Source of the DNA: Bacteroidota bacterium
GTDB lineage: Bacteria; Bacteroidota; Bacteroidia; Flavobacteriales_D; Sanyastnellaceae
DNA: 64,000 nt
NCBI GenBank assembly: GCA_027622975.1
Contig: JAQBVN010000006.1
Location: 1-64,000 of the forward strand
Direction: 5' to 3'
In this document: one piece after another, positions 12,152 through 53,572 of the stretch
Layout of the letters: every line of letters starts with the position of its first letter
Numbering within the stretch: position 1 is the stretch's first letter
The notes under the pieces: generated by a model
Database searches by the model: none
What the model was told of the DNA's origin: nothing
Seen by the model: only the letters and a program-made list of their open reading frames with translations
Made by a program: the position numbers and the translations under genes

Positions 12152-12898
12152 TCAGAACAGATCCAAGACCGAGTCAACCCCCAAAGGCCGCGCTGACTCA
12201 AATCCTTCCCCAGCCTTGAATCCAACTGGTCTACCCATGGAAGTAGCCCGACCTTTGACGTGCTCGAGAAATTCAGGAGAGCTGATGGGAGTCTCTGGCT
12301 GTTCCGAAAGGGGATCATGAAATTGGGACTTGTACGCAAGAATGGCCTCCATCTTGACGTTGACGAAGCCTGCAATGTCCACCACAAAATCAGGGGTCCT
12401 GTCGTAATCCTGAATGTAATGATACACAGCCCGGGGTCTCCATGGTTGTTCAGGATGATTTGGCGTGCCAGTCTGAATTTTCACCAACCCCGATAAAAAT
12501 GCGGCCCTTGCAACCAAAGCTGCAGCTCGCCCGTGATCGGGATGTCGATCCACCAAGGCATTGGCCAAAACCACAGTGGGCTGGAGTCTGCGAATGGCCG
12601 AAATGATTCGGTGAAGATTCTCCTGATTTTCCTCAAAAAACCCATCGGCCAAAACGAGATTCTCGCGGTGAACCAATCCCATGATTTTGCCCGCTTCCTC
12701 GGCTTCTTGATCCCGGAGGTCAGCGGACCCTCGGGTGCCCAATTCTCCGCGCGTCAAATCCACCACACCGCATCGTCTGCCTTGGTGTGAGAGTTTGGCC
12801 AAGGTTCCTCCCGCAGAAAGTTCCACATCATCTGGATGGGCGCCAAAAGCCAAGACGTCCAAAGCAGGAATAAGGGGAAAAGACGTCGCATTCGCCAT
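12152..12898 (-). CDS. bshB1: Bacillithiol biosynthesis deacetylase BshB1
   Basis: The protein has 248 aa of the LmbE/PIG-L family. The zinc site AHPDDVELSAGGT is near residue 20, followed by DLTRGELGTRG. The third ligand is in VDRHPDHGRAA. C-terminal features QFHDPL and RPVGFKAGEGFE are specific to BshB1. It deacetylates GlcNAc-malate in bacillithiol synthesis. bshA and bshC are not in the window. The gene ends tail-to-tail with the flippase gene; a perfect -7 box lies 4 nt before the ATG. Confidence 0.94.
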   Translation of the reverse strand: MANATSFPLIPALDVLAFGAHPDDVELSAGGTLAKLSHQGRRCGVVDLTRGELGTRGSADLRDQEAEEAGKIMGLVHRENLVLADGFFEENQENLHRIISAIRRLQPTVVLANALVDRHPDHGRAAALVARAAFLSGLVKIQTGTPNHPEQPWRPRAVYHYIQDYDRTPDFVVDIAGFVNVKMEAILAYKSQFHDPLSEQPETPISSPEFLEHVKGRATSMGRPVGFKAGEGFESARPLGVDSVLDLF

Positions 12899-31937: not shown

Positions 31938-32548
31938 GCTGCCTCAAGCCAAAGTTGGAGGAGGTTGCGACCCTGCGGGGTGAGCACAGACTCTGGATGA
32001 AATTGGACGCCCGCGATGGGAAGGGAACCATGGACCACTGCCATGATCAGCCCTGAACCATTGCGGGCGTTCACTTGAAGACACGCCGGAAGGGAGGACT
32101 CATCCAACACCCAGCTGTGGTAATGTCCCACAACCATGGGAGAAGGCATTCCCGTCCACAAGGTCTGCCAGCCGCTCGATTGGGACGGGAGGGCTTCCCA
32201 AGCAATCTCCGAAGCCCGTCCATGCAAGGGTTCAGGAAGATTTCTCAAAGCACCGCCAAAGTGTTCTGCAATGGCCTGCATGCCAAGACAGACGCCCAAG
32301 ATGGGCACACCCCTTGAAATGGCCTCCGCCAGCACCAACATCAATTGGGGATGTTCGTTGGGAAGACCCGGACCGGGGGAAAGAACCAAACCATCGGTGG
32401 AATCCCACATCTGATCGGACCACATCCCCTCGCGAACAACATTCACGCGTGCTCCCAACCTCCCGAGGTCATGGGCCAGATTCCACGTGAAGGAATCGAG
32501 GTTGTCGAACAAGGTGATGCGCATGGTGGTTAGCTTTGGGTCATCCAC
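31886..32548 (-). CDS. Glutamine amidotransferase, TrpG/PabA-like
   Basis: The protein has 220 aa from ATG 32548. ATG 32524 would give the more usual short N-terminus, but the -7 box 4 nt upstream favours the first AUG. It shows DNLDSFTWNLAHDLGRLG, LSPGPGLPNEH, the catalytic Cys in LGVCLGMQAIAEHFGG and the His/Glu pair in AGVQFHPESVLTP. It hydrolyses Gln to deliver ammonia to an anthranilate or aminodeoxychorismate synthase. No trpE/pabB partner is in the window, so which pathway it serves is open. Confidence 0.9.
   Translation of the reverse strand: MDDPKLTTMRITLFDNLDSFTWNLAHDLGRLGARVNVVREGMWSDQMWDSTDGLVLSPGPGLPNEHPQLMLVLAEAISRGVPILGVCLGMQAIAEHFGGALRNLPEPLHGRASEIAWEALPSQSSGWQTLWTGMPSPMVVGHYHSWVLDESSLPACLQVNARNGSGLIMAVVHGSLPIAGVQFHPESVLTPQGRNLLQLWLEAAQRSLSISASNVSLNFS
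32531..32538 (+). promoter_or_regulatory. -7 box TAGCTTTG for ridA
   Basis: This is a perfect TAnnTTTG, 26 nt before the ridA ATG. It lies inside the 5' end of the divergent amidotransferase gene. Confidence 0.4.
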
Positions 32549-32552
32549 CCGT

Positions 32553-32560
32553 CAAAAGTA
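32553..32560 (-). promoter_or_regulatory. -7 box TACTTTTG for the trpG/pabA-like gene
   Basis: This is a perfect TAnnTTTG on the minus strand, 4 nt before ATG 32548. It overlaps the ridA leader, so the two divergent promoters interlock. Confidence 0.45.
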
Positions 32561-33152: not shown

Positions 33153-35591
33153 TCAAAACAGCAATTTCCCATCGGCCCCACGGGCCTCGAGTTTGAGATC
33201 CCGCAACAGGGCCGATTTCACGTTGAGCCTGAGCGAAAAGCTCTGTCGAATGCCAAAGGGAATCCACTCAAACGACAGTTCCCAGCAATGCAAATCCACG
33301 TAGAGGTTCAAGTTGGTGGGCGTGAACTCCCGTCGCGCGAGGTCGTATCCCGTTTGCATGTCCAATTTGTATCGTGAGACTTGAAGGCCGCCTCGAGCGG
33401 ACAAAGCATGGGTCACCACACTGGTATCCCGGGCCAAATCAGGAGCCCATTGGCGTGCCAAGTTCACATTGTAGTCCACTCGCAGATTCCATGGATTGGA
33501 GGCTCCTTGGCCCGCATTGAATGAAGTGCCCACAGCGCCCGTCAAGCGCTTCAAGCGGAGCACCCCCCCTCCTTGCCCCACCAACCATTGATCGACCACC
33601 TGTCCGGTCACGGAATCCCTGGCATACGCTGAATGTGTGGCGTTCAAATTCAAGTTCACCTTGTTGAACAGGCTCGTGAATGCGCGTGTTTGAATGTCTG
33701 ACAATTTCAGAGAGTCCGCCACCAAGTTGTAGCTGCCCGACGTGTTGAGGTTGTCCAAAATTTTGACCTTCTTCAATGCCCCCGTCTCTCGATCGGAGAC
33801 CTTGGCCTCGAGGTTTTGGCCCAAACTGAAGGTGACGGCGCCCGCCTCTCGCATGTCTGAAGGAACAAACCTCCCCAAGGCATAAGGATTCCAAGTGAAC
33901 TCTTCTCCAGAGGCAGCCACGAGGGTTTCCAAGCGGCTGCGCTCAGGGTTGTAACTCAGGCCCAAACTTGGAGACAACACATGTCTCACGGCCTTCACGC
34001 GGCCAGATCCCGGCACATTGAACAGTCCGTAAAATCGGGTGCTGGCAGACACCCCAATGCGCCAATCACTTGTCGTTTGAAAGCCCCCGAGGGTGTCGGT
34101 AACGACCACCGAAGAATCGGGTGCTACGACCTGCTCCGAGGTGCGAAGAGCGGCAAAACCATCGTATTGATCGTACTCCATAGAAGGAGAGATCGAAACA
34201 AAACCAAGACTTGAACTAGATGACAGTTTAACCTTGTGCTTCAGACCATTACGAATTTTCAACTCTCCCCAATCCATGGCACCAAACACACTGTCAGGGG
34301 CTTCAACAACATTCTCCATCTGGGAACTGTACGTCACTGCCAATCCATCCAACACCGAGGAACGACCTCGATCCAACCCAAGGAGCTGAGACAGGGGCGT
34401 ACGCTGCATGTTCAGCGAGAGGCTGGGAACTGTCAGCTGCACATTGCCCGTCGTGGAATTTTGGGTGTGCCTTGCACTGATGGTGGCAGAAAAAGGGCTT
34501 CGAGGAACGCGCCCCGTCCACTGCACAGAGGACTGAAAGGTGTTGGATAGGTACTCTTCTTGGGTGCTGTTGAGGTTTTGCTGAAAGTTCCCTGAAGATC
34601 CAAAGTTGACAGATGCACTGAACCGGCTGTTGGGACGGGCACGTGGATCTTGATTGTGGTTCCAACGAACGAAGAAGTTGTTGCTTAGCCCAAATCCAGG
34701 CGTCCCTACAAATCCCTGACGCTGACGCTGATAACTCAGATTAAACGAACCTTTACTTCGATATCGGTAGTTGTAGTTAGACGCCAGCCTTGTGGCCCAA
34801 CTCCCTCCCGTGTAGACATCCATGAGCAACTTGGAATCCCAGTGCTCCCCCAGTGGTTGGTAATACCCCAAATCCTTCAGGAAAAATCCCAAATCGCCAC
34901 CATCTCCATATCCGGGAAGCAAGACGCCTTGGCTTTGCTTCTCGCGCTTCAAAGGAAACCACCCAAAGGGAAGGGCCAAGGGCGTGGGGATCTTCCGAAA
35001 CTTCAGGTACAATGGACCACTGACCACCTTGTCATTGGGAACCATGATGGCCTTGGTCAAGTGGAAATGATAGTGTGGATTGGCTGCATCACAGGTGGTG
35101 AACTTGCCGTCTCTCACATGAATGGACTGATCTGGTTGACGCTTGGCTCGTTCTGCGTGAAACACGACATCTTGTTCCATGGTGACAGCATGCCGGCTCA
35201 ACCCCTTCCCCGTGGCGAAGTTGTAGCAGAGTTGATCTTGGGTGAACGATTGTCCGTTGTCCGAAAATTCAGGGCGGCCTTCGATTCCGCCAAGGCTGTC
35301 TCTTTGGCCAAACGCACACACCGTGTTGTCTTCCAGATTCAACACGATTCGATGGGCCGTCAACACCATGCCACCGCTGGCAACACGGGCCCTCCCTGTG
35401 AGGTACCCAATGGCACTGTCCACGCGGAAATAGATGTCTTCGGCATCGTATTCAACCACCTCAGAAGCACTGGAAGGAGGCGTGGAAGTTTGGGCCCAAC
35501 AGGCTGGGCTTATCAACACCCAAAAAAGGATAATCGACATGCCGCGCACCACAGGCCCTGCGGGGATTGGGGTATGTTTGGGAACTGGCAT
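33153..35591 (-). CDS. lptD: LPS-assembly protein LptD, Bacteroidota type (LptD_2)
   Basis: The protein has 812 aa from ATG 35591. This start gives a signal peptide with basic residues before the hydrophobic core (MSIILFWVLISPACWAQ) and lies 11 nt after a perfect -7 box; ATG 35540 is the alternative. The OstA-like periplasmic jellyroll covers residues ~35-230 (VEYDAEDIYFRVDSA; LTGRARVASGG). The remainder is a long C-terminal beta-barrel rich in alternating aromatic strands and ends in KLLF. It inserts lipopolysaccharide into the outer leaflet. Its start codon overlaps the amidase start on the other strand. Confidence 0.9.
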   Translation of the reverse strand: MPVPKHTPIPAGPVVRGMSIILFWVLISPACWAQTSTPPSSASEVVEYDAEDIYFRVDSAIGYLTGRARVASGGMVLTAHRIVLNLEDNTVCAFGQRDSLGGIEGRPEFSDNGQSFTQDQLCYNFATGKGLSRHAVTMEQDVVFHAERAKRQPDQSIHVRDGKFTTCDAANPHYHFHLTKAIMVPNDKVVSGPLYLKFRKIPTPLALPFGWFPLKREKQSQGVLLPGYGDGGDLGFFLKDLGYYQPLGEHWDSKLLMDVYTGGSWATRLASNYNYRYRSKGSFNLSYQRQRQGFVGTPGFGLSNNFFVRWNHNQDPRARPNSRFSASVNFGSSGNFQQNLNSTQEEYLSNTFQSSVQWTGRVPRSPFSATISARHTQNSTTGNVQLTVPSLSLNMQRTPLSQLLGLDRGRSSVLDGLAVTYSSQMENVVEAPDSVFGAMDWGELKIRNGLKHKVKLSSSSSLGFVSISPSMEYDQYDGFAALRTSEQVVAPDSSVVVTDTLGGFQTTSDWRIGVSASTRFYGLFNVPGSGRVKAVRHVLSPSLGLSYNPERSRLETLVAASGEEFTWNPYALGRFVPSDMREAGAVTFSLGQNLEAKVSDRETGALKKVKILDNLNTSGSYNLVADSLKLSDIQTRAFTSLFNKVNLNLNATHSAYARDSVTGQVVDQWLVGQGGGVLRLKRLTGAVGTSFNAGQGASNPWNLRVDYNVNLARQWAPDLARDTSVVTHALSARGGLQVSRYKLDMQTGYDLARREFTPTNLNLYVDLHCWELSFEWIPFGIRQSFSLRLNVKSALLRDLKLEARGADGKLLF
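35573..35580 (+). promoter_or_regulatory. -7 box TATGTTTG for the amidase
   Basis: This is a perfect TAnnTTTG, 9 nt before ATG 35590. It lies inside the first codons of the divergent lptD gene. Confidence 0.4.
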
Positions 35592-36861
35592 GAAGCAGCA
35601 TTCAAAAGTAGCCAAACAACGCGTCTTTGCGGCTTGTGTTGCATTGGTTGGCATTTGCGCGGCCTTCGCCCCCGCCCCGCCTGTCCTCACCTTGGTTCTT
35701 GACGCCGGCCATGGAGGCAAAGATCCCGGCAACCTCGGCACGGGGCGTTACCCCAGCACGGAGAAAGACATTACCCTGGACGTGACCCTGCAAGTTGGGC
35801 GTTACATCGAGGAACAACTCCCCGAAGTCCATGTGCTCTACACCAGGACAGATGACAGCTTTCCCGCGCTCCACGACAGGGTGAGGTTCGCGAACAATGC
35901 CAAAGCAGATCTTTTCATCTCCATTCATTGCGATGCCTTTACGACTGCGGGGGCCAAGGGCGCTGGGTCGTATGTGATGGGCATGCACAAAAGCGAGGAG
36001 TCCCTGCGCGTGGCCATGAAGGAAAATGCTTCCATGTTCAAAGAGGAGAACTACGAGAAGCATTACGATGGGTTTGACCCCAACGATCCCGACACGTACA
36101 TCGCCTTGGCGCTCCGTCAAAATGTCAATCTTGACGCGAGTCTCACCTTGGGCGCCGCCATCCAGAGCCAATTCCGCGAGCGAGTGGGACGCAAAGATCG
36201 AGGTGTCAAGCAGGCTGGGTTCTACGTCATTTCATACACCACCATGCCAAGCGTGTTGGTCGAGCTCGGATTCCTGACCAATCCAGAAGAAGAAGACTTC
36301 CTTCAGTCCACCACAGGCAAGGATTTCATGGCTTCTGCCATTTTCAGGGCCTTTCGAGATACGTATCTCACCTCCAGGGTCACTAAGGAGATCCCTGAAA
36401 ACCGCGTGCCTGAAACGCGTTCAGGATCCACAGTGAACGACCAGGAAAGCGACGATGGGCAGAGCGCAAGGAACGACGATGGGCAGAACGCACGGAACGA
36501 CGACGGGCAGACGAATCCCCCAAAAGAGGCAGACACAAAAGTGGCAGACACGCCACCCTCCGTGCATGTGCTTTCAACAGACAGACCTGCCGTTTGGTTT
36601 GGTGTACAAATCCTGACCACAGAGGAGTCTTTGTCCCCAGATTCTCCACAATTGCGTGGTCATGCATCCGCCAAGGCGTACATTCGTCAAGGTTTGCACA
36701 AGTACGTGGTAGGCCATCACGACCATCCCGACAAAGCCCATGTTGCCAAAGACCAATTGCGCGCGGAAGGATTTGAAGGTGCATTCGTGGTGGCATTTTT
36801 GGGAGAGACCCAAATCACCATGTCTCATGCGAGAGAATTGCTGAATCTACCTGCCAAGTGA
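35590..36861 (+). CDS. N-acetylmuramoyl-L-alanine amidase with SPOR-like domain
   Basis: The protein has 423 aa. After a signal peptide (AACVALVGICAAFA), an Amidase_3 domain runs from residue ~35 to 260. LDAGHGGKDPG has the zinc His, DITLDVTLQ the Glu, and SIHCDAF the second His, with VLVELGFLTNPEEE containing the catalytic Glu. A repeat-containing acidic linker (DDGQ units) follows. The C-terminal ~80 residues (WFGVQILTTEES ... LHKYVVGHHDH ... GAFVVAFLG) are SPOR-like and would bind denuded septal glycan. It cleaves peptide from peptidoglycan during cell separation. Confidence 0.92.
   Translation: MKQHSKVAKQRVFAACVALVGICAAFAPAPPVLTLVLDAGHGGKDPGNLGTGRYPSTEKDITLDVTLQVGRYIEEQLPEVHVLYTRTDDSFPALHDRVRFANNAKADLFISIHCDAFTTAGAKGAGSYVMGMHKSEESLRVAMKENASMFKEENYEKHYDGFDPNDPDTYIALALRQNVNLDASLTLGAAIQSQFRERVGRKDRGVKQAGFYVISYTTMPSVLVELGFLTNPEEEDFLQSTTGKDFMASAIFRAFRDTYLTSRVTKEIPENRVPETRSGSTVNDQESDDGQSARNDDGQNARNDDGQTNPPKEADTKVADTPPSVHVLSTDRPAVWFGVQILTTEESLSPDSPQLRGHASAKAYIRQGLHKYVVGHHDHPDKAHVAKDQLRAEGFEGAFVVAFLGETQITMSHARELLNLPAK
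35603..35610 (-). promoter_or_regulatory. -7 box TACTTTTG for lptD
   Basis: This is a perfect TAnnTTTG on the minus strand, 11 nt before the lptD ATG at 35591. It lies inside the first codons of the divergent amidase gene. Confidence 0.45.
36451..36512 (+). repeat. 24-bp in-frame tandem repeat in the amidase linker
   Basis: The unit gacgatgggcagaacgcac plus five bases occurs about 2.5 times, encoding DDGQSARN, DDGQNARN and DDGQ. Confidence 0.75.
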
Positions 36862-37895
36862 GCACACTTCGTCCCGAATTCAAAGTAGGCGTCCTCGTCG
36901 TATCTGGCATTGTGTTGCTCGTTCTCGGGGTCAATTACTTGAAAGGTTTCAATCCATTTGCGAGGTCCAACACCTTTTACGCGATTTACGAGGACGTGCG
37001 TGGCTTGGCCGTGAGCAACCCTGTTCTCGTCAATGGTTACCAAGTGGGTCAAATTCGCCGCGTCGAATTTGTTCCCGGTGGGTTTGGTGAATTGTTGGTT
37101 GAATTCACGGTGGAAGAAACGCAACTCTACATTCCTCGCAATTCCGTGGCCATGATTCACAGCTCCGATTTGTTTGGCACAAAAGCCATCCGCATCGAAT
37201 TCGGAGATTCACCGGACTATGCCCTTTCGGGAGACACCTTGGTTCCCAATGTGGAAGATGACATCGCGGCGCAAGTCCAAAAACAACTTGAACCGCTTCA
37301 AAGAAAAACCACCGACCTGATCAAGGGCGTGGACGTCATCATTGAAAACATTCAAAGCATTTTTGAAAGCGACGCGACCAACCAACTTCCGGAAGCGCTC
37401 GAAAGTGTCAAACGCACCGTGGAATCGCTCGAGCGAACAGCTGCCAACCTCGACAGCACTGTGGCGGAGAACAGAAGCAATTTCGGCCGAGTCATGGGCA
37501 ATGTCAGGTCCTTGACAACAACCCTCAACAACAGCGGAGACGACCTGCAGAACACCTTGTCCAACTTATCTGACTTCAGCGACTCCCTGTCGAGTTTGGA
37601 CCTTGGGATTGCCATGCGCAAGGCCAACGAAGTGCTTGCAGACCTTGAACGCGTGACGAGCAAAGTCGCTGCTGGGGAAGGAAGCCTGGGTAAACTTGTG
37701 ATGGAAGATAGCCTGCACGATGAACTCGTGGCCACCAATGTGGAACTGCAATTGCTGCTCGACGATTTGCAGATGCACCCTTGGAAGTACGTCCAAGTGA
37801 ATTTGATTGGACGCAAGCAAAAATCGGAATGGTCCAAAAAGGACTTGCAACGCTTGGAGCAACTGATTGATGAACGTGTGAATTCAGATCAATGA
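36858..37895 (+). CDS. MlaD/MCE-family lipid-transport protein
   Basis: The protein has 345 aa from GTG 36858, overlapping the amidase stop by 4 nt. One N-terminal membrane anchor (VGVLVVSGIVLLVLGVNYL) is followed by the MCE domain, with YEDVRGLAVSNPVLVNGYQVGQI and SSDLFGTKAIRIEFG. A long helical region follows (residues ~140-280; ESVKRTVESLERTAANLD). It belongs to the periplasmic ring-forming component of lipid-trafficking systems. MlaE and MlaF partners are not adjacent. Confidence 0.92.
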   Translation: MSTLRPEFKVGVLVVSGIVLLVLGVNYLKGFNPFARSNTFYAIYEDVRGLAVSNPVLVNGYQVGQIRRVEFVPGGFGELLVEFTVEETQLYIPRNSVAMIHSSDLFGTKAIRIEFGDSPDYALSGDTLVPNVEDDIAAQVQKQLEPLQRKTTDLIKGVDVIIENIQSIFESDATNQLPEALESVKRTVESLERTAANLDSTVAENRSNFGRVMGNVRSLTTTLNNSGDDLQNTLSNLSDFSDSLSSLDLGIAMRKANEVLADLERVTSKVAAGEGSLGKLVMEDSLHDELVATNVELQLLLDDLQMHPWKYVQVNLIGRKQKSEWSKKDLQRLEQLIDERVNSDQ

Positions 37896-37899
37896 CATC

Positions 37900-39222
37900 A
37901 TGCTGACAAAAATCCTCTTTGTGCTTTGCTTGATGACCAGCGTGAAATTGTTCGCTCGTCGCATTGGTTTCATTCGTCGCAACATCCTGATGGGTCATGA
38001 CGTCAACCGTTCTGACAGACCTTCCGACCGTTGGAAGACGATGGCCCGCGTTGCCCTGGGGCAGGGCAAAATGATTGCACGACCTGTCGCAGGTGTGATG
38101 CACGTGTTCATCTATGTCGGCTTCGTGTTGATCAACATCGAGCTTTTGGAAATCATCCTTGATGGCGTGTTGGGTACGCATCGCGTGTTTGCTCCACTCG
38201 GTGGTTTGTACGACGTCTTGATTGCCTCTTTTGAGGTGCTTGCTGCCCTTGTCACCCTGGCCTGTGTTGTGTTCTTTGTCCGAAGGAATGCTTTGGCCAT
38301 TGCGCGATTCCGATCCCCCGAAATGAAGGGTTGGCCTTCCATGGATGCCAACGTGATTCTCATCGCTGAGGTCTTGCTCATGTTTGCATTCTTGAGCATG
38401 AACGCATCGGATAGCATCGCGCAGGCCAGAGGCCTGGATCACTATGTGGTGGCCGGATCCTTTCCTGTGAGCCAGTTTTTGGTCCCTCTCTACGAAGGGT
38501 TGTCTGATGCTGGCGTGGTTGCCGTCGAACGTGGCATGTGGTGGTTTCACATCCTGGGAATCCTTGGATTCTTGGTCTATGTGACGTATTCCAAGCACTT
38601 TCACATCTTGCTGGCTTTCCCCAACACGTATTACAGCGACTTGACCGCGCAGGGAGCCATGGACAACATGGCTGCTGTCAAAAAAGAGGTGGACCTGATG
38701 ATGGACCCGCAGGCAGACCCCTACGCTGCTCCCGCTCCGGAGTCGGAGGCAATGCCTGTGAAGTTTGGTGCAAAAGACGCCACCGACCTCAGTTGGAAGC
38801 AACTGATGGAAGCGTACACATGCACCGAATGTGGTCGATGCACGAGCGAGTGCCCGGCCAACCAAACTGGCAAACTTCTCTCCCCTCGGAAAATCATGAT
38901 GGATACCCGCGACCGAATCGAAGAAATCGGGAAGCAGCGAGAAGCAAACGGCGGAACGTGGGAAGGAGATGGAAAGTCGCTTCTGGGCAACTACATCACC
39001 GAGGAAGAGCTCTGGGCTTGCACCTCGTGCCAAGCCTGTGTTCAGGCTTGTCCCGTCAACATCTCCCCCATGGGCATTGTGCTGGACATGCGCCGCAGTT
39101 TGATCATGGAGGATAGCAAATCGCCTGAGTCCATCACCACCATGTTCAACAACATCGAAAACAACGGCGCACCCTGGGCCTTCCCCGCTGCCAGTCGCGG
39201 TGATTGGACTCGTGAATCTTGA
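37900..39222 (+). CDS. Membrane (Fe-S)-binding oxidoreductase, heterodisulfide-reductase-like
   Basis: The protein has 440 aa. Several membrane helices occupy the first ~220 residues, with likely haem-b or structural His residues. Two [4Fe-4S] motifs follow: CTECGRCTSECP near residue 308 and CTSCQACVQACPVN near residue 376. The fold resembles a NarI-like cytochrome fused to a ferredoxin module, as in HdrE/HdrC or GlpC-type complexes. It should pass electrons between quinones and the CCG-domain protein encoded next (4 nt downstream). The donor is unknown. Confidence 0.85.
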   Translation: MLTKILFVLCLMTSVKLFARRIGFIRRNILMGHDVNRSDRPSDRWKTMARVALGQGKMIARPVAGVMHVFIYVGFVLINIELLEIILDGVLGTHRVFAPLGGLYDVLIASFEVLAALVTLACVVFFVRRNALAIARFRSPEMKGWPSMDANVILIAEVLLMFAFLSMNASDSIAQARGLDHYVVAGSFPVSQFLVPLYEGLSDAGVVAVERGMWWFHILGILGFLVYVTYSKHFHILLAFPNTYYSDLTAQGAMDNMAAVKKEVDLMMDPQADPYAAPAPESEAMPVKFGAKDATDLSWKQLMEAYTCTECGRCTSECPANQTGKLLSPRKIMMDTRDRIEEIGKQREANGGTWEGDGKSLLGNYITEEELWACTSCQACVQACPVNISPMGIVLDMRRSLIMEDSKSPESITTMFNNIENNGAPWAFPAASRGDWTRES

Positions 39223-52517: not shown

Positions 52518-52919
52518 TCAGAACCTGTTCTGAAGCGCCTCCGACATCTGGCCAAACAACCCTTTGAGGGCAGGCTCCACCATCATGCGGGTGAATGGAT
52601 TCAGCTCTGCATCGCACACGACTTGGCAGGTGCTTCCTTGTTCTTCTGCAATGACCAGCACATCGAGGGAGAATTTGACAGGCGTAGGAGCAACCGTGTT
52701 CAACGCCAACACGCTCGCAGAAGCAGATGCCTCGACCTTCTCGAGATGAATGGCAACACCCCCAGTGACCTTGAATGAGCAAGCATTCCCAGAGGCTGAA
52801 AAATCTGTCACCGGACCGGAGGACAAAAGCGTTCCAAATACCTCCCAGTCATTCATGGCTTCCGCCACTTCAGGAACCGAAGCTTTCAATGAAACCAGGG
52901 GAGATTCAATGCGAGTCAT
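52518..52919 (-). CDS. SRPBCC-fold protein
   Basis: The protein has 133 aa. VSLKASVPEVAEAMNDWEVFGTL, a central strand-rich part and the C-terminal helix MMVEPALKGLFGQMSEAL fit the START/SRPBCC helix-grip fold, which usually binds hydrophobic ligands. The ATG overlaps the pyrE stop (ATGA). The ligand is unknown. Confidence 0.75.
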   Translation of the reverse strand: MTRIESPLVSLKASVPEVAEAMNDWEVFGTLLSSGPVTDFSASGNACSFKVTGGVAIHLEKVEASASASVLALNTVAPTPVKFSLDVLVIAEEQGSTCQVVCDAELNPFTRMMVEPALKGLFGQMSEALQNRF

Positions 52920-53572
52920 GCCATTTGACGTTGATCACTCCAAGACACAGGGTCGGATGACCATGATTCAAGAAGCGATGTTTTGTCTTCCGTGATGTAC
53001 CCCTCAGCCTGGGCTTGCGCCAACATCGTGGGATAATCAGTCAGAACTTCAAAGGGGCATTTGGCCTCCTCAAACCGAGCACGAGCGTCTGCAAATCCGT
53101 AGGAAAAAATGGCCACAAGTCCCTTCACTTCCAGGTCCTCCTCTCGCAGAGCGGCCACGGCCTCAAGACTGCTCTTGCCCGTGGAAATCAAGTCCTCAAT
53201 CACCACGACGTTTCTCATGGTATCCAAATCACCCTCTACCCTTCTGCCTGTGCCGTGAGCCTTGGCAGAACTTCGCACATAGCAAAACGGGATGCCCAAT
53301 TCTTGTGCCACCAGCGCTCCAAGGGCAATGCCTCCCGTTGCCACCCCGGCAATGCCATCTGGCTTTCCAAACCGTTCCGTCACGAGTTCACTCGCAAGTT
53401 GGCGTACAAACGTTCGCACAGCCGGATGCGACAAGAGCTTGCGGTTGTCGCAATAAATCGGCGACAGACGGCCACTGGCCCATGTGAACGGATCTTGAGG
53501 ACGGAGTTGAATGGCTTTGATGCGGAGCAGGAATTCCGCTACCTTTCGGCGTTGATCGGACGCAATGGTCAT
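52916..53572 (-). CDS. pyrE: Orotate phosphoribosyltransferase
   Basis: The protein has 218 aa. It shows FTWASGRLSPIYCDNRKLLS, GVATGGIALGALVA, the catalytic loop SAKAHGTGRRVEG and the PRPP motif VVVIEDLISTGKSS. It forms orotidine monophosphate in pyrimidine synthesis. A perfect -7 box lies 4 nt upstream. Its ATG overlaps a start codon of the divergent NUDIX gene in a CATG. Confidence 0.95.
   Translation of the reverse strand: MTIASDQRRKVAEFLLRIKAIQLRPQDPFTWASGRLSPIYCDNRKLLSHPAVRTFVRQLASELVTERFGKPDGIAGVATGGIALGALVAQELGIPFCYVRSSAKAHGTGRRVEGDLDTMRNVVVIEDLISTGKSSLEAVAALREEDLEVKGLVAIFSYGFADARARFEEAKCPFEVLTDYPTMLAQAQAEGYITEDKTSLLESWSSDPVSWSDQRQMA
53540..53547 (+). promoter_or_regulatory. -7-like box TACCTTTC for the NUDIX gene
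   Basis: This matches TAnnTTTG with one mismatch, 23 nt before ATG 53571 and inside the first codons of pyrE. Confidence 0.25.

Follow-up and report, generated by a model that had tools for sequence, protein, structure and literature searches.

How can two bacterial genes be transcribed away from each other when their start codons overlap? The question is raised by lptD and an N-acetylmuramoyl-L-alanine amidase gene within a stretch of 64,000 nucleotides (the window), which comprises positions 1 to 64,000 of contig JAQBVN010000006.1 from a Bacteroidota bacterium of the family Sanyastnellaceae (assembly GCA_027622975.1; 2.27 Mb in 39 contigs). lptD occupies 33153..35591 on the minus strand and the amidase gene 35590..36861 on the plus strand, and their products match the Pfam profiles LptD_2 (413.9 bits, 1e-123) and Amidase_3 (166.5 bits, 7.6e-49), above the curated cut-offs of 22.5 and 27 bits, respectively. 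With lptD starting where predicted, the two reading frames overlap at their 5' ends (a divergent overlap) in a single CATG (35589..35592), which is common to the amidase ATG (35590, plus strand) and the lptD ATG (35591, minus strand). The predicted -7 box of the amidase promoter, TATGTTTG (35573..35580, plus strand), lies within lptD codons 4-6 and 9 nt from the amidase start codon, while that of the lptD promoter, TACTTTTG (35610-35603, minus strand), lies within amidase codons 5-7 and 11 nt from the lptD start codon; plus-strand letters at 35603-35610 are CAAAAGTA. Both boxes are exact matches to TAnnTTTG and were present in 11 of 11 genomes of the genus. The shared CATG, the boxes at 35573 and 35603 facing each other across it, and the location of each box inside the first codons of the opposite gene had been proposed in a sequence-only reading of the window, and they were borne out both in the window and in its relatives. 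We conclude that the locus probably carries two facing Bacteroidota sigma-A promoters that cannot be occupied together, and that their spacing has been kept while leader lengths changed.

A family set was assembled by searching 114 genomes with the amidase. Of these, 105 matched and 103 upstream regions were read, with two fragments (G044 and G097) left out. No lptD match was found in 16 of the 103 (15 in genus g20 and L066, which is at a contig end), which left 87 family regions. One CATG holding in-frame ATGs of both genes, together with both boxes, occurred in 47 genomes of five genera: the window's own genus g1 (11/11), g7 (1/1), g14 (2/2), g21 (13/13), and g18, where it was seen in all 20 genomes with lptD available and where a 21st, at a contig end, has the same sequence. 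Genus g3 and, in one case, g12 have further in-frame CATG sites that do not lie at the boxes; these were left out of this count. Throughout the five genera, the plus-strand box is always exactly 9 nt ahead of the amidase ATG and the minus-strand box is 11, 8, or 20 nt ahead of the lptD ATG; the plus-strand box of g21 has one mismatch in 10 of 13 genomes. Conservation of the CATG and of both boxes in related genomes, which had been named as a check on the proposal, therefore held, and their joint occurrence is far beyond chance.

Codon usage beneath the boxes is also constrained. All 11 g1 genomes have GTA as amidase codon 7, although GTA makes up 3-5% of Val codons (4.7% in the window genome sample). 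The same codon in g18 is CTA in 19 of 20 genomes and TTA in the remaining one, with CTA representing 3.4% of Leu codons, and the matching codon of g21 (codon 10) is CTA in 13 of 13 genomes at a usage of 10%. All of these box-overlapping codons retain the TA that the box requires. On the lptD side, codons 5-8 of g18 read AAA TCT AAA ACG in 20 of 20 genomes, while codons 2-4 and 9-16 vary. Although these counts come from related genomes and have no probability attached, codons under the boxes are almost fixed to rare synonyms, indicating selection on the letters and not on the protein alone. Such codon use rules out the box in the amidase gene as a by-product of a conserved peptide.

In most other genera of the family the start codons lie apart, yet TAnnTTTG-N~22-CAAAnnTA is found between lptD and the amidase gene. 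Among the 103 family genomes, a facing pair at a spacing of 18-32 was exact in 73, had one mismatch in 16, and was absent from 14, all of which belong to g20; a single g20 genome is included among the one-mismatch pairs, and this match may be due to chance. Exact facing pairs were present in 72 of the 87 family regions, compared to a mean of ~0.1 in shuffles. The class set drew on the order and class, with one or two genomes taken from each family (80 loci); in 74 of these loci, an amidase match on the opposite strand lies downstream of the lptD start. After excluding six loci without the amidase and four with the amidase more than 600 nt away, 38 of the 70 remaining class regions, all outside the family, contained an exact facing pair at a spacing of 10-40, as against a mean of 0.4 (maximum 3) in dinucleotide shuffles. 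At the same spacing, back-to-back boxes occurred in 0 of 87 family and 3 of 70 class regions; at any distance, the facing pair was found in 46 and the back-to-back pair in 8 of the 70. Outside the class, 19 lptD regions representing 16 further families of the phylum were examined, and none had an amidase gene within ~900 nt. Because the facing pair is conserved far above shuffles in both family and class, chance is excluded. As judged from these sequences, the facing promoters would be independent of coding overlap, and the CATG overlap would be their compact form. Separately, lptD open frames of five g20 genomes span 1333-1362 amino acids, 400-500 longer than usual, and the extra N-terminal part looks OstA/LptA-like by eye.

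Spacing between the boxes proved far more stable than their distance from the genes. In the 17 genera that have an exact pair, the boxes stood 22.5 nt apart on average with a standard deviation of 2.5, whereas the distance from box to first in-frame ATG had a standard deviation of 23 for the amidase gene and 25 for lptD. (For the class, the standard deviation of spacing was computed within the chosen range of 10-40 and is hence too small.) Since extra nucleotides inserted between the boxes would do no more than lengthen both leaders, stable spacing suggests that the pair functions as a pair.

In reports on Flavobacterium johnsoniae (PMC6847099) and Flavobacterium psychrophilum (PMC9723704), the sigma-A box is placed at -12 to -5. 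By analogy with these relatives, transcripts would start near 35585 on the plus strand and 35598 on the minus strand, giving predicted leaders of 5 and 7 nt and a predicted 5' overlap of ~14 bp (35585..35598). The sequence-only reading had expected an overlap of only a few bases, which this box position corrects. Folding of the two predicted RNA 5' ends revealed nothing (z of 2.05 and 0.56). A single symmetric -10 used in both directions, as in a bidirectional promoter, was not found at the locus, which instead has two boxes 22 bp apart, each pointing at the other between divergent genes.

We propose that two housekeeping sigma-A promoters ~22 bp apart would each fire toward the other, so that each departing polymerase would cross the opposing -7 box and the mRNA 5' ends would overlap by the ~14 bp predicted above. 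RNA polymerase has a footprint of roughly -50 to +20. With such a footprint, a polymerase at one promoter would also take up the opposing box, and it seems impossible for both promoters to be bound at once; the geometry thus makes it likely that the two polymerases exclude each other, and lptD and the amidase gene would take turns at one site. Over much of the class Bacteroidia, the spacing has been retained while leader lengths changed, and in g1 and the four other CATG genera the starts have come close enough to share the CATG, which would yield near-leaderless mRNAs with promoters within the opposite codons. Whether the arrangement links lipopolysaccharide (LPS) assembly to peptidoglycan cleavage through polymerase competition, as the sequence-only reading had suggested, we retain as a hypothesis.

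Several observations weigh against facing sigma-A promoters as the explanation. The pair is missing from 14 of the 15 g20 genomes (loci L098, L100, L104, L108-L110, L112, L114, L116-L118, L122, L125, L126, and L136), and no exact pair at a spacing of 10-40 was seen in 32 of the 70 class regions. Leaders shorter than 10 nt are rare in studied relatives: the values reported are 3.7% for leaders of <10 nt in Bacteroides thetaiotaomicron (PMC7366714), 13% for leaders of 10 nt or less in F. johnsoniae (PMC6847099), and 5.5% for leaderless mRNAs in F. psychrophilum (PMC9723704). No conserved -33 TTTG motif was detected on either side among 17 genus representatives; this motif is weak in F. johnsoniae also (PMC6847099). 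G is nearly absent at -10 and -9 of F. johnsoniae promoters, which follow TAHHTTTG (PMC6847099), and yet G was present at -10 in 56 of 72 lptD-side boxes of the family pairs and in 26 of 38 of the class pairs. The corresponding counts are 4 of 38 for amidase-side boxes of the class and 2 of 31 for upstream boxes of the genome sample (Fisher test, 3e-7 and 9e-8). In these family and class pairs, the lptD-side box is mostly TAGTTTTG or TAGCTTTG, whereas class amidase-side boxes mostly follow TAHHTTTG. The window itself has G at -9 of its plus-strand box (TATGTTTG), and its own lptD-side box (TACTTTTG) fits TAHHTTTG, without G at -10. Our guess is that the G-bearing boxes are weakened or specially tuned. 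In addition, a start of lptD at codon 15 is possible in g1. Finally, a C precedes the amidase ATG in 47 of 47 CATG genomes, and C also precedes the ATG at 62% of 242 confident ATG starts in the window genome (the window and L219-L238). Because C so often precedes a start ATG in this genome, its invariance within CATG is weak evidence when taken alone.

If both promoters are active, the site may act as a divider. The amidase gene is followed on the plus strand by an MCE/MlaD-domain gene (36858..37895, domain match), which overlaps the amidase stop and is probably on one transcript with it, and then by a 4Fe-4S protein gene (37900..39222, plus strand, domain match) that would belong to the same putative operon. 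Each arriving polymerase would then make either the LPS-assembly transcript or the amidase/MlaD transcript, in a ratio set without a regulator by the relative strength of the two boxes, and this balance would be tuned in part by the unusual G found at -10 in the lptD box or, in the window, at -9 in the amidase box; in the five CATG genera such a divider would be fully coding. We regard this proposal as possible yet tentative.

Facing boxes were also sought elsewhere in the genome, in a sample of 430 kb with 362 called genes and 52 divergent pairs from a hexamer gene-calling model. This model placed the start of lptD at 35459 and that of the amidase gene at 35434, leaving the lptD/amidase pair itself unscored, and its counts of divergent pairs are rough. 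Among the 52 pairs, one other exact facing pair was identified, and five had back-to-back boxes. The facing pair, at 32531-32560, consists of TAGCTTTG (plus strand) and TACTTTTG (minus strand), separated by 14 nt, and lies between a trpG/pabA-like gene for a glutamine amidotransferase (minus strand, start 32524) and ridA (plus strand, likely start 32565). It was kept in all five genus loci that reach it, with a spacing of 8-10. The facing arrangement is therefore uncommon, though not unique, in this genome. Within the last 10 nt before the 362 called starts, exact boxes numbered 17 in the sense and 1 in the antisense orientation, an enrichment that favors the promoter reading of such boxes, and the commonest position for the end of an exact box was 4 nt before the called start, a leaderless position seen in 9 of 362 genes (12152-12898 and 52916-53572, both on the minus strand, and seven in L223-L236). 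This lineage may use leaderless mRNAs more than the Bacteroidota studied so far.

An alternative is that the layout is a frozen accident combined with compaction: both promoters would be real, their facing orientation an inherited coincidence, and the CATG a product of small, dense genomes, with basal firing so low that polymerases would not meet and would have no useful competition. In its favor, genome size in the genus is 1.7-2.3 Mb, trpG/ridA provides a second facing pair in the same window and genus, and a study on Escherichia coli bidirectional promoters reports basal activity too low for competition (PMC12825309). However, spacing is far steadier than leader length even though neither promoter would suffer from nucleotides inserted between the boxes, and facing pairs are also seen where genomes reach 3-5 Mb and in families without start overlap. 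We consider a frozen accident rather unlikely.

Also unlikely is that lptD starts downstream, at codon 15 (35549) or codon 18 (35540), such that the CATG overlap would go unused and lptD would have an ordinary leader of ~50 nt or more. Codon 15, which is GTG in the window, is ATG in nine, GTG in one, and ATT in one of the 11 g1 genomes, so that a start codon is available in 10 of 11, from which a compact signal peptide would begin; against this, the ATT genome has none there, and neither do most g18 genomes. The sequence-only reading would have yielded to a start at 35540. This ATG is present only in the window among the 11 g1 genomes, whereas the CATG start is kept in all 11, and a start at 35540 is accordingly disfavored. 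Moreover, all 39 distinct sequences are free of stops in the lptD frame from the CATG up to and including codon 14, where ~20 such sequences would be expected from base shuffles, while the two other frames from the CATG contain stops in 11 and 31 of the 39.

Least probable of all, and very unlikely in our estimation, is that only the plus-strand box is a promoter, with CAAA[AG]CTA acting on the amidase gene as an operator or as an element transcribed early, or else serving another factor, and lptD transcribed from elsewhere: the G at -10 on the lptD side is atypical for sigma-A and makes this element more uniform than a bare -7 box needs, but it matches TAnnTTTG exactly in 82 of 87 family regions, is nearly always the sole lptD-facing box there, and varies in its distance to the lptD start, as is allowed for a promoter.

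In E. coli, bioA/bioB and argE/argCBH have facing promoters; the literature search gave no paper on either, and its listings showed none on the lptD/amidase pair or on facing TAnnTTTG promoters. Among the systems retrieved, one likeness is to scbA/scbR of Streptomyces coelicolor (PMC3134472), where facing promoters with overlapping 5' ends have been proposed to couple expression through interference. That overlap is 53 bp, is described in one organism, and involves a product that is a DNA-binding receptor, whereas here the predicted overlap is ~14 bp, neither product is a regulator, the spacing is kept over many families, and the starts overlap in five genera. The pR-pL promoters of phage 186 and P2-like phages (PMC7498355) also face each other, but at 40-60 bp with operators between them, and control lysis-lysogeny. 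In E. coli bidirectional promoters (PMC12825309), opposed polymerases likewise cannot bind together; these use one shared symmetric -10 with diverging transcripts, in contrast to the two separate, converging -7 boxes at lptD/amidase. Convergent promoters at helD/anti-helD of Bacillus subtilis (PMC12802891) set expression by interference and have been used as a sensor, although the opposing transcript there is an antisense RNA and not, as here, a second protein gene. A survey of divergent overlapping genes (PMC2174442) describes the same 5'-5' overlap of frames as the rarest class (331 divergent among ~15,000 overlaps), and conserved promoters inside both frames are not treated in the text covered. 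A facing pair at near-constant spacing through a class, or wholly inside two frames sharing a CATG, was not found in the literature searched.

Earlier examples of facing promoters are individual loci of phages, Streptomyces, and Bacillus, and here the pair joins two envelope genes in many families. For one of these genes, a -7 box variant (TAGTTTTG/TAGCTTTG) is conserved contrary to the usual promoter rule. Conservation of the facing pair suggests that expression of lptD and the amidase gene is coupled, and these genomes, with g20 as the case of loss, offer a natural series in which to ask if two envelope processes can be kept in proportion by polymerase competition alone.

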